41,513 nt of DNA from Archaeoglobales archaeon. GTDB taxonomy: Archaea > Halobacteriota > Archaeoglobi > Archaeoglobales > Archaeoglobaceae. Both the position numbers and the translations under genes were made by a program. The notes beneath the pieces are model-generated. The model was not told where the DNA came from. It did not search any database and was given only the letters and a program-made list of their open reading frames with translations. The stretch lies in NCBI GenBank assembly GCA_029984855.1, contig JARQZL010000037.1, positions 1-41,513 of the forward strand, in the 5' to 3' direction. How positions within the stretch are numbered: position 1 is the stretch's first letter; each line of letters starts with the position of its first letter. Of the stretch, positions 9,802-21,758 are shown piece by piece.

Positions 9802-9813
9802 CTCCGTAATGAG

Positions 9814-9887
9814 TGGGGCCGCCGAGATTTGAACTCGGGTAACGGCGTCCCGAACGCCGCAGGATTACCAGGCTACCCCACGGCCCC
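9814..9887 (-). tRNA. tRNA-Pro (CGG)
   Basis: A complete cloverleaf without intron on the minus strand: 7-bp acceptor stem GGGGCCG/CGGCCCC, D arm with GGTA, anticodon stem CGGCG/CGCCG around the loop TTCGGGA (anticodon CGG, reading CCG), and a T arm with GTTCAAATC. The discriminator is A and CCA is not encoded. The first 15 nt overlap the end of rpoN, including its stop codon. Confidence 0.95.
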
Positions 9888-17526: not shown

Positions 17527-18813
17527 ATGGAGTTCTATGATGTGAGAAAAGTTGAGTCATCAAGCCTTTTACTCAATCTTGAAAATGGAAAGATTGAGAA
17601 GCCCCGGTACGAGCATTCCTATGAGAAAGGCTTTAGAGTTTTGAAAAATGGATTCTGGGGGGTTTTTTCAGGCAATGTCTCCGATGATGAAGGTATAGAA
17701 AGAGCAAAAGCAAATGCCGTGGGAAAAGGAGAAGCTGAGATCGTTGAGGCTGGTGAAGGTGGCAGGTACATTATGAAGGTAAAAAAGAGTCCCGCAGACG
17801 TCGCTGTAGATGAAAAAGTCGAATTGATGAGAGAAATAGAGAAGGAGCTGAAAGCAAGTTACGTTGTGAGCACAAGGATTGTTTACATGGAGAACGTCAG
17901 AAGGCTCAGCTATGCAGATTGTTTTGGAACAGAAGCATACTACGAAGTTACAAGAAGTGGTATGATCGTTCAGGCAGTCGGGAAGGATGAAGTGATGCAG
18001 TTCTACTCGAGACGCATGCTAAAGCCAGCAGGCTACGAAATTTTTGATGATGGAGCCTTTGAAATGGCATCTGATGTAAGAGTTAGGCTTGGCGAACTGC
18101 TTAAAGCAAGATTGCCACCCTCGGGAGAGATGAACGTAGTTGTGAATCCAAGCCTCTGCGGGGTGTTTGTTCATGAGGCTTTCGGACATGCAGTTGAGGC
18201 TGACCATGTCTTGCAGGGTGCAACAATTCTCGCCGGCAGAATAGGGGAGAAAGTTGCATCCAGTGATGTTTGCATATACGATGATCCCACTCTCATGGAG
18301 TTTGGCTTCTATCCATTTGATGATGAGGGTGTAAAAGCTGAGAGGAAAAAGATAGTTGAGGAAGGTATTCTCAAAAGCTATCTTCATTCAAGAGAGACTG
18401 CAGCAAAGCTTGGCGGTTTGCCAGGAAATGCAAGAGCTCAAGGTGTTGCCGAACCGATCGTGAGAATGAGCAATACGTATATGGGTGAGGGAGATTATAC
18501 ACTCGATGAGCTCATAGAAGAGGCAGAGAATGGAATTTTCCTCGCAGGTTCAAGGGGTGGTGAAACAAATCCTGCAAGTGGTTACTTCCAGTTCAATGCT
18601 CAGTATGGCTATATAATACGGGATGGGGAGCTTGCTGAACCGGTAAGAGATGTCTCCCTTTCAGGGCATACTCTGAGTATACTCCAGAACATAAAACTCG
18701 GGAACGTAATTGAATTTGACCCTGGCTTCTGCGGAAAAGCGGGACAGCTTGTTCCTGTGGCAGACGGGGGGCCTTATGCACTTGTAAGTGCGAAGGTCGG
18801 TGGTGCAACATGA
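17527..18813 (+). CDS. tldD: TldD-family zinc metalloprotease
   Basis: 428 residues, TldD/PmbA superfamily. The metal site is HEAFGH (H216, E217, H221) in VFVHEAFGHAVEADH, with the third ligand Cys expected in the C-terminal region (FCGKAGQ). TldD forms a heterodimer with TldE; TldD carries the active site and digests unfolded or small peptides. The adjacent tldE overlaps by 4 bp (ATGA). The ATG is leaderless-type: TTTTTATTATC lies about 20-30 bp upstream and no ribosome site is seen. Confidence 0.92.
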   Translation: MEFYDVRKVESSSLLLNLENGKIEKPRYEHSYEKGFRVLKNGFWGVFSGNVSDDEGIERAKANAVGKGEAEIVEAGEGGRYIMKVKKSPADVAVDEKVELMREIEKELKASYVVSTRIVYMENVRRLSYADCFGTEAYYEVTRSGMIVQAVGKDEVMQFYSRRMLKPAGYEIFDDGAFEMASDVRVRLGELLKARLPPSGEMNVVVNPSLCGVFVHEAFGHAVEADHVLQGATILAGRIGEKVASSDVCIYDDPTLMEFGFYPFDDEGVKAERKKIVEEGILKSYLHSRETAAKLGGLPGNARAQGVAEPIVRMSNTYMGEGDYTLDELIEEAENGIFLAGSRGGETNPASGYFQFNAQYGYIIRDGELAEPVRDVSLSGHTLSILQNIKLGNVIEFDPGFCGKAGQLVPVADGGPYALVSAKVGGAT

Positions 18814-20030
18814 TTGACGGTAAGATTGACAGTAAATGTGATGCCTGGGAGGTGTTCCACAGAAGAAGCGAGAAGAAGTCGGTTCTTGTGGAGAGGGGCA
18901 GAATCAAGAGTGTGGCTGGCGAGATAGAGCAAGGCTATGCCGTGAGAGTTATAGTCAAAGGCAGGATCGGGTTTGCATTCTCACAGAATCTTGAAGAAGC
19001 GTTTGAGAGAGCGATCAAGATTGCAAGGATTTCGGGAGAAGAACTGAGTGATTTTCCTGAGGGGGGCTGGACGGACGTGAAGGGGATATACAACAGAGGG
19101 TTTGAGGATATAACGGGAGAGTGGTTGAAGGAGAGTGCCAGCAGACTCATTCTCCCGTGCACAGATATGAACGTCAACGCTGCATCTGGCAGTGTGGAGG
19201 TTGAAAGGAGCACAACTTCAATAAAGAATTCTTCCGGATTCGAGATGGAAAAAAAGGAGACATCCTGTGTTGCATTTCTCGAAGCTGTCTGCGATGGGAG
19301 CAGTGCCTACGAGTACGTGCAGAGCAGGAATTTCAATGTCGATTTTGATTCTGTCGGAGCAAAAGCAGCTCAGCTCGCACTTCAAAGCAGGAATCCGTTA
19401 AAGCTTGAAAAAACATGCAGTGTCGTACTCAGTCCTCTTGCACTCAACCAGCTTCTCAGTTATACACTGTACCAAGCATTATCCGCCGAGAGTCTTCTGA
19501 AGGGGAGGAGTCCGCTTAAACCCGGAGATTTTCTTGGAGAAATAACGATTTTTGATGATGCAACGCTTGACAGTGGTTTGAACAGCATGCCCTTTGACGA
19601 TGAAGGATGTAAATCAACCAGAAAGGAAGTGATCCATAAAGGGGAGCTTAAAACATTTATAAGCGACTACAGAAGTTCTCTGCTTCTTAAAATTGAGGCA
19701 GGGAACAGCCATAGAGATGAACTCACATCCTATCCTTCAATTACACCCACAAACATGGTGATCGAATACGAGCGTTCTTCAGATATAGAAAATAACTCCC
19801 TTGTCGTGCACTCTGTAATAGGAGCACACACTGCAAATCCGGTAAGCGGTGACTTCAGCGTTGAATGTATGAATGCTTTCTACAATGGCATGCCTGCAAA
19901 AGCCATGCTCTACGGAAATATTTACAGTGCACTCAAAAAAATAGAGTGCCTCGGAAAGAAGACAAAACAGGTAGATTTTACAGTTTCTCCACCGGTGAGA
20001 TTCGGTGAAGGAGCCATGCACATAGTTTGA
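18810..20030 (+). CDS. tldE: TldE/PmbA-family protease subunit
   Basis: 406 residues. It shares the TldD/E fold (GYAVRVIVKGRIGFAFSQN near residue 45, FDDEGCKSTRKEVIHKGELK, HTANPVSGDFSVE) but lacks the HExxxH motif, so it is the non-catalytic partner that shapes the cavity. Translation is coupled to tldD by ATGA overlap. In bacteria TldD/E matures microcins and degrades CcdA; archaeal substrates are unknown. The gene converges on the DUF2589-like operon. Confidence 0.9.
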   Translation: MIDGKIDSKCDAWEVFHRRSEKKSVLVERGRIKSVAGEIEQGYAVRVIVKGRIGFAFSQNLEEAFERAIKIARISGEELSDFPEGGWTDVKGIYNRGFEDITGEWLKESASRLILPCTDMNVNAASGSVEVERSTTSIKNSSGFEMEKKETSCVAFLEAVCDGSSAYEYVQSRNFNVDFDSVGAKAAQLALQSRNPLKLEKTCSVVLSPLALNQLLSYTLYQALSAESLLKGRSPLKPGDFLGEITIFDDATLDSGLNSMPFDDEGCKSTRKEVIHKGELKTFISDYRSSLLLKIEAGNSHRDELTSYPSITPTNMVIEYERSSDIENNSLVVHSVIGAHTANPVSGDFSVECMNAFYNGMPAKAMLYGNIYSALKKIECLGKKTKQVDFTVSPPVRFGEGAMHIV

Positions 20031-20061
20031 TTGTTTCAATTTTTCTAAAAAAGAAAAAATT
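20031..20061. terminator. Bidirectional A/T-run terminator between convergent genes
   Basis: The 31 bp between the two stops consist of T runs on one strand and A runs on the other (CAATTTTTCT, then AAAAAAGAAAAAATTTT). This gives oligo-T for both transcripts, which fits archaeal intrinsic termination. Confidence 0.5.
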
Positions 20062-20532
20062 TTATTCTTTTAGCACCTTTTCTCCACTCACAAGGGTGTA
20101 TTCCAGTAAAGGCTTGCTTGTGAGCTTCAGCTTTACCGTGGACAGCGAGTTCTGAAGTGCGGATATCTTCTCAGGGTCTGTAGTTATCAGGACGTCATCT
20201 TCTTCAACGTCTTCTACAAGAAACCTGAGTTCTACCTCTATCTCAGAGAGATCAAATGTCGTAACCGGAAGAGTACGCATGATTTCATCTTTCTCGTAAA
20301 TGCTTCTTTTCGCCTTAATTGCCTCTGTATCGGTTATTGTCTTGGCTTTCAGTGCTGCGAGAGCAATGTTCGCCGTAAAGGTTTTCAGGGATAGCTTTGG
20401 TTTTGCGATTTTATCACCATGTCTCTCTCCAGGTTTGTCAATATTTTTGCTGCCCACTTCAGGTAAGTGGATTCCTACCTTTCTGACTTCTCTCTTCTTT
20501 ACTTCCCTTTCACTGTCTTTTTTGCGAGGCAC
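20062..20532 (-). CDS. Third protein of the DUF2589-like operon
   Basis: 156 residues, GTG start sharing one base with the stop of the upstream gene. The first 50 residues are Lys/Arg/Glu-rich and probably disordered (KKDSEREVKKREVRK). The rest repeats, in weaker form, the layout of the two upstream proteins: an Ala-rich helix (TANIALAALKAKTITDTEA), then strands TTFDLSEIEVELRFLV and STVKLKLTS. I infer a divergent third paralogue. No enzyme motif, signal peptide or TM segment is visible. It may be an adaptor whose basic tail contacts nucleic acid or membrane; that is speculation. Confidence 0.62.
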   Translation of the reverse strand: MPRKKDSEREVKKREVRKVGIHLPEVGSKNIDKPGERHGDKIAKPKLSLKTFTANIALAALKAKTITDTEAIKAKRSIYEKDEIMRTLPVTTFDLSEIEVELRFLVEDVEEDDVLITTDPEKISALQNSLSTVKLKLTSKPLLEYTLVSGEKVLKE

Positions 20533-21029
20533 TATCTCCCTCCTGCTGTCAGCGAGCTGCTCAATGCCGTGATCATTCTCGCAATGCCTTCGGGCACATC
20601 AACTCTCCTGGCTTTTATTTTTATGTGTATCTCTCCACTGAGGCCCATTCTCGCAGCTTTGCTTGCGTAAGCCGCATAAAGCGGAACTGCCTTTACACCC
20701 TCATTCTTTGGCTTTGCCGCTACAATCTTTGCATCGAACTCAATCTCTGCCTCGTCAACGCTGATATATGGTATCGGAACAAGTGTGACAAGAGGAATGT
20801 CCAGGCCCTGTTCTTCAGGTTTGAACTCTCCTGTTTCCGCATCCTGAATAATCCGGACGTATTTCAGTCCAACGCTCTCAGGAACTAACTTTTCCCCCTC
20901 TTCTTTCATCAGACCCATTATGAACTCCACTGTCGCTTTTGCAGATTCACTCTGTGCATCTACGATAGCTCTGAGTGGTGAGGCGATAATCTGCTCCAGC
21001 AGAAGGGCAACGTTGCTTTCACCGACCAT
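20532..21029 (-). CDS. DUF2589-like protein (second of three)
   Basis: 165 residues. The arrangement matches DUF2589: an N-terminal helix pair ([29 protein letters not shown]), a beta domain with the family-like segment [24 protein letters not shown], and a C-terminal MPEGL-like helix ([16 protein letters not shown]). It shares this layout with the upstream 196-residue protein. Function unknown. The ATG follows GAGGTGCCTG, nine bases after the stop of the upstream gene. No export signal. Confidence 0.7.
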
Positions 21030-21038
21030 TCAGGCACC

Positions 21039-21629
21039 TCAGCTTGAAGAGCTTGCAGATGATGGTGGTGCTATGCTCTCCTTGAGAACGCTCAGTAGTG
21101 TTCTCAGACCTTCAGGCATCTCGTCCTGTACAGCATTGACTGTAATGTCAAGTTCAGAGCTTCTGTCAACCTGAGACCTTGTCTCCTTCTTGAAGCCGTA
21201 TGATGCAGTCAACTTAACGCTGCCCCATCCCCAACCTGCTTTGGCTGAGAGTTTCGTCGAAAAATCGTGCTGGGTCTTGTCGTAGGCAGTCGTTTTGATT
21301 GTAAAGTTAAAGTGCACAGTCATGTCCTTAATTCGTATGAACGGGACGGGCAGTATCGTCAGAAGTGGTGCCTCTATTGTTGTGTCCACATCATTCACAT
21401 CCCCGGTTTCGGGATCGACAACTTTTCTCTTGAACCGGAACGTCACGGACTTAACATTTCCATCATCGTCAAGTCCCACCTCTTCCACAAACCTTGCCGT
21501 TGTCATCGCTGCATAAGCCTGCGCTCTTACAGCGGCCTCCAGTGGTTTTCCTATAAGGCTTTCTATTGGCAGAGCAGCAAGTTCTGCCGGTATATTTGCT
21601 TCGACCAAAATTAACACCTCCTTTGACAT
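21039..21629 (-). CDS. DUF2589-like protein (first of three)
   Basis: Up to 196 residues. Segments typical of DUF2589 are LPIESLIGKPLEAAVRAQAY, the strand IEAPLLTILPVPFIRIKDMT followed by VHFNFTIK, and a C-terminal MPEGLRTLLSVL helix before a Ser-rich tail. The start is ambiguous. An ATG at 21629 lies about 25 bp after a TATA-like AATTTATAC and would be leaderless. A perfect GGAGGTG inside the frame is spaced 6 nt from a TTG at 21608, which would give MVEANIPAEL. First gene of a three-gene operon whose members look homologous. The role is unknown; tandem DUF2589 genes also occur in bacteria. Confidence 0.75.
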   Translation of the reverse strand: MSKEVLILVEANIPAELAALPIESLIGKPLEAAVRAQAYAAMTTARFVEEVGLDDDGNVKSVTFRFKRKVVDPETGDVNDVDTTIEAPLLTILPVPFIRIKDMTVHFNFTIKTTAYDKTQHDFSTKLSAKAGWGWGSVKLTASYGFKKETRSQVDRSSELDITVNAVQDEMPEGLRTLLSVLKESIAPPSSASSSS

Positions 21630-21758
21630 AATTAGTACCCAATTGTATAAATTCTTTGCTATTAGTATCAGATCGAATATAGAGATGCTCTCGCTTTCGC
21701 AGCAGTAAGACAGAAAATAAAGCGAAAAGATATTATCTTCCCCGGATTTACTTACTGT

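Follow-up and report, generated by a model that had tools for sequence, protein, structure and literature searches.

The window analysed here, a stretch of 41,513 nucleotides from the 2.13-Mb genome of a hyperthermophilic member of the Archaeoglobaceae (G000; one genome of the same genus is a single contig of 1,901,943 bases), carries on its minus strand, between positions 20062 and 21629, the three open reading frames that an earlier sequence-only reading had reported there, and all three are present as it described them. Gene A (21039..21608, its ORF being listed to 21629) encodes the putative core DUF2589 subunit, gene B (20532..21029) a second DUF2589 paralogue and gene C (20062..20532) a divergent relative. 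A and B are separated by 9 bases, B and C overlap by one base (spacing -1), and a Shine-Dalgarno site is found at each of the three starts. Because the site of A, AAAGGAGGTG, falls inside the listed ORF, in its first codons, and the homology of A to L018, L019 and L022 begins at 21607, the true start is probably the TTG at 21608 rather than the ATG at 21629. Comparison of the sequences directly upstream of A points to a likely archaeal promoter, TAATAGCAAAGAATTTATACA (21630..21671, minus strand); the upstream sequence TAATAGCAAAGAATTTATAC is nearly identical in L015 and L016, so that the promoter is kept in three genomes despite differing flanking genes, the homology ending upstream at 21667 with L015 and at 21671 with L016. 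Directly after the stop codon of C, the sequence reads as a T-rich run, ATTTTTTCTTTTTTAG (20045..20061, minus strand), a likely terminator; similar T-runs occur in L015 and L140, yet not in every relative. Among relatives, the homology of the operon is limited by the promoter and by the end of C. The tight spacing, the Shine-Dalgarno sites, the upstream promoter and the T-run give the operon the look of a self-contained unit, whose three genes would be co-transcribed.

The products of A and B match the Pfam model PF11655 (DUF2589) with E-values of 9.8e-43 (146.6 bits) and 1.8e-21 (77.5 bits), respectively, well over the curated cut-off of 23 bits and over nearly the full profile, which bears out their description as DUF2589-like; they are the sole DUF2589 matches in G000. 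C, in contrast, lies outside the model: it has no Pfam match, and none to PF11655 even at E<=1. Moreover, the Pfam entry covers single proteins and not the A-B-C or A-C-D gene sets described below. A combines an N-terminal helix, the strand motif LLTILPVPFIRI, a GWGWGS strand region and a C-terminal MPEGL helix, B is shorter and lacks the GWGWGS insert, and C has a basic disordered N-terminus, a helix at residues 49-79 and the strand motif TTFDLSEIEVELRFL. The strand motifs quoted in the earlier reading and the C-terminal MPEGL and VPEGI are indeed found in the proteins. With a hydropathy maximum of 1.4 (19-residue window), the products are cytosolic-looking and lack strong hydrophobic stretches. 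The AlphaFold single-chain models are of low confidence, that of A (pLDDT 55, pTM 0.35) presenting a helix at 22-52, six strands and a helix at 173-186, and that of C (pLDDT 62, pTM 0.43) a long helix at 49-79 followed by short strands. Searches of solved structures gave nothing usable by sequence and no match by fold for the A and C models, PHROGs and NCBIfam returned only noise, and the PADLOC anti-phage defence models matched neither A, B and C nor six bacterial counterparts.

Judging from profile comparisons, C corresponds in archaea to a bacterial protein not described so far, hereafter C-type, that comes after DUF2589 genes: a profile seeded on the bacterial protein reaches C of the window at 4e-26. 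The link of C with A and B is weak when single pairs are compared (hhalign E=3.5e-4, probability 37%, 36 columns) and is confined to about 33-36 residues around LPxPxIR. E-values near 1e-4 are no proof here, since a profile built on A only scored E=2e-4 on one reversed family protein, and those of iterated C-seeded searches were distrusted because later rounds can take in A; a C-only profile with controls was used instead. This profile, built on 37 C-type proteins and searched against all the ORFs of 57 loci, places DUF2589 proteins in the top 32 ranks outside its own class (2,178 listed ORFs), with an AUC of 0.94 computed on family members that are not independent, and gave zero matches to reversed and shuffled controls. 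In the reverse direction, the A-only profile separates C-type proteins with an AUC of 0.96, C of the window itself scoring poorly (E=67). The third product had been described as a weaker version of the pattern of the other two; the rank test indicates that such a distant relationship through the strand motif, weak as it is in any single-pair comparison, does not arise by chance. The graded similarity proposed for these tandem homologues is thus found, A and B belonging to PF11655 and C being the more distant through its strand motif.

The three genes evolve at different rates. Compared with L015, A is 97% identical in amino acids and 85% in nucleotides (coding alignment), with dN 0.011 and dS 1.12, that is, a dN/dS of about 0.01; B is 76% identical (dN 0.144, dS 1.43) and C 63%, both evolving faster than A, and many of the remaining dS values are saturated. 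Since the DNA identity to L015 is 75% for the whole operon and similar for the flanking genes FEN1 (73%) and DHH (67%), the identity of A reflects constraint and not transfer, and these substitution rates indicate that A is under very strong protein constraint. The same comparison rules out a recent horizontal transfer between the window genome and L015.

A quick tree of 85 DUF2589 proteins, with long branches among the bacterial second copies, sets archaeal A (14 rows, support 99) next to bacterial A in one clade spanning archaea and bacteria, and leaves archaeal B (11 rows, support 95) outside the A group; it places the A/B split before the archaeal/bacterial split of A. At least two members stand together on one strand, mostly less than 150 bases apart, in 52 of 57 archaeal and bacterial loci. 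Of the five exceptions, three lie at contig ends (one such locus occurs in two copies) and two are short ORFs of 95 residues. Because the split is so old and the members are joint in 52/57 loci, the heteromeric assembly suggested by the sequence-only reading is likely, and we consider it reasonably probable that A, B and C themselves co-assemble. The ring or filament that the same reading put forward, with C as adaptor, would be a hypothetical form of such a complex. Some DUF2589 ORFs of about 95 residues keep the N-terminal helix part followed by an unrelated end (L100:6062-6349, L101:3786-4073 and L099:6337-6632, the last cut by a contig end).

PF11655 was found in 7 of the 24 Archaeoglobaceae genomes searched (a count that includes G000) and also in Nitrosothermus (L023), and is absent from all other archaeal genomes sampled among the relatives searched. 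In the bacteria sampled it is rare, a few percent or less of genomes (15/247, 3/284, 9/349 and 5/247, each tally counting its seed genome). In Nitrosothermus (L023:7824-9394), the frame of A is broken after about 99 profile positions and a C gene lies downstream; this A is possibly a decaying copy within a ribosomal-protein region. At the edges of the operon, no recombinase gene and no direct repeats were found as signs of a mobile element, the inverted repeats being weak and chance-like. The sole tRNA of the window is a tRNA-Pro (CGG) at 9813-9887, minus strand. No relative was confirmed in the IMG/VR viral contigs, a phage collection holds one unverified 4-kb record with a relative, and the single viral match in BFVD, the 178-residue protein A0A516MP19, is a relative by sequence, sharing 32% identity with A over the full length.

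The genes that flank the operon, named from Pfam (FEN1 from its XPG domains), differ from one archaeal genome to another. The window has thymidylate kinase on one side and a TldD/PmbA-family gene (tldE) on the other; in L015 the operon lies between FEN1 and a DHH protein, and L016 has tldD and, on the opposite side, a DUF5612/ACT protein. Neighbours elsewhere are an Lrp/AsnC regulator (L018), ribosomal protein L16/L10e (L019), DUF1786 (L140) and aldehyde ferredoxin oxidoreductase (L145). A tldD-family gene thus stands beside the operon in two genomes, in differing orientation (window 17527-20030, L016:680-2044). G001, of the same genus, lacks the operon, and an empty site cannot be read in it, a distance of about 1.29 Mb separating tldDE from thymidylate kinase. 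No effector-type enzyme was found beside the archaeal operon, the neighbours in the window being tldE and thymidylate kinase; since housekeeping genes surround the archaeal loci, these tell nothing about a cargo role.

Such neighbours would suit another reading, in which the operon encodes a metabolic or stress scaffold of Archaeoglobus tied to heterotrophic growth, with no effector link, the bacterial neighbourhood signal being incidental. The literature search for DUF2589 gave a passing mention and no functional description, which agrees with the earlier statement that the family has no assigned function: the A. fulgidus genes AF0414-AF0417, called DUF2589-related, are up-regulated on lactate (PMC3949148). 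Like the present operon, they form a series of short genes related to DUF2589 and belong to the same archaeal family; they differ from it by their number, four instead of three, orthology being assumed. This lactate response favours the scaffold; it comes, however, from one microarray study only, the archaeal loci have no fixed metabolic neighbour, and the presence of PF11655 in just 7/24 Archaeoglobaceae indicates that it is not needed for core metabolism. We therefore hold the scaffold to be a doubtful explanation. The operon is a stable, uncharacterised multi-paralogue module with a still putative function.

In bacteria, most loci have the order A, C-type and D, the latter being a helical protein of about 190 residues encoded after the C-type gene in 25 loci (for instance L024:9415-9996 and L032:2076-2648), with no Pfam match among the members scanned. 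In L032 (2685-3401) and L135 (2636-3358), D is followed by a fourth gene with a helix-then-strand pattern (SVAVRSIRLHLGQ), which may be another divergent relative. The second type of module, which includes Vibrio plasmids, comprises A', A and a protein of about 90 residues of the DLSDVRHVERIVIGRYNPNNP type (L038:8938-9213, L040:8833-9108, L123, L124, L125, L126 and L131), for which one member tested had no Pfam match.

Close to these modules and on the same strand are genes for muramidases (L042, L039), a GH24 lysozyme (L125), an amidase_3 together with a Tle1-like lipase (L126), a CHAP protein (L089), a GH46 enzyme with a PG-binding domain (L097), GH19 enzymes (L128 and, by sequence, L124), a PG-binding protein (L138), a patatin (L088), subtilases (L092 and L085, the latter assigned from its likeness to L092 and a count of two), a trypsin-like protein (L086), an eCIS_core protein (L096) and an SpvB/TcB-like protein (L094). 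Among the families listed, strong enzyme families account for 8 of 101 near genes versus 0 of 104 distant genes (Fisher p=0.003), or for 7/100 without one muramidase at 2,043 bases, just over the limit of 2,000, in a count that relies on simple longest-ORF gene calls, omits four very long near ORFs, includes two subtilase loci that are alike and thus not independent, and takes as distant-gene control the best 25 of 56 and 25 of 62 families, beyond which weaker matches are possible. No such enzyme was recognised nearby in about two thirds of the bacterial loci. The link of the bacterial modules to envelope-attacking enzymes may nevertheless be a first hint at the role of the family.

The same vicinity of hydrolases to small, cytosolic-looking proteins without strong hydrophobic stretches could mean that A, B and C are separate binding proteins (hydrolase inhibitors, immunity proteins or chaperones) that have only their regulation in common, the enzyme link being one of protection and not of delivery. 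Rapid change is usual in immunity proteins; A stays 97% identical where the DNA of FEN1 and DHH matches at 73% and 67%, one A family adjoins unrelated enzyme folds, and the archaeal loci carry no such enzyme, all of which makes separate binders an unlikely solution.

Lysozymes, muramidases, amidases, lipases and proteases are frequent neighbours of the bacterial modules, which resemble in this respect the effector operons of T6SS and eCIS and the phage lysis cassettes; they differ from them in that neither a sheath nor a tube nor a holin was identified alongside a DUF2589 module, and the archaeal operon differs further by having no adjacent hydrolase. Could the module assist a contractile injection system (eCIS or T6SS) as an accessory that loads or seals its effectors? 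The eCIS_core protein near one bacterial locus and the Tle1-like lipase near one would be in line with it, as would the sheath genes present in 12/33 DUF2589-bearing bacteria versus 4/28 controls (Fisher p=0.08), or in 15 versus 4 when sub-threshold matches are counted (p=0.01), figures that come from a search for the PF04984 sheath and are uncorrected for genome size. DUF2589 is thereby weakly associated with sheaths in bacteria. However, most DUF2589-bearing bacteria have no sheath above the cut-off, the sheath genes are not close to the module, and such a role in Archaeoglobus is refuted within the reach of the Pfam sheath model, PF04984 being found in 0/13 Archaeoglobaceae genomes (G000 and 12 others), seven of them with the operon. 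The injection-system role is accordingly very improbable.

The explanation we favour is that of an assembly, in which all three products of the operon would be subunits of a single heteromeric protein complex of the cytosol. A would be its slowly evolving core subunit, B an ancient paralogue co-assembling with A, and C a more distant third relative keeping the helix-plus-strand interface, whose basic disordered tail would probably hold a partner or a cargo. The bacterial sets (A, C-type and D; A, A' and the protein of about 90 residues) would probably be accessory or carrier modules for hydrolases directed at cell walls, membranes or proteins, and the archaeal operon would stand alone, the gene for its partner lying elsewhere. 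Taken as a whole, this explanation is put forward tentatively, its probability falling a little short of even, and its carrier component, considered separately, is rather unlikely. In its boldest form, DUF2589, C-type and D would make up a multi-paralogue assembly, as yet undescribed, that carries or delivers envelope-degrading enzymes in both bacteria and archaea, with the Archaeoglobus operon as a reduced three-subunit form, a proposal that we regard as improbable at present.

In conclusion, our observations give an anatomy to a family without an assigned function, with a core subunit almost always found together with a paralogue, and add to it a third member class and a helical partner, both without Pfam models. 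The bacterial C-type counterpart, the helical D and the envelope-enzyme link in bacteria had not been foreseen by the sequence-only reading. The link of the bacterial modules to cell-envelope hydrolases is testable. If it is true, it would point to a carrier or release system that escapes standard searches, and the archaeal trio, being small and thermostable, would lend itself well to structure work.
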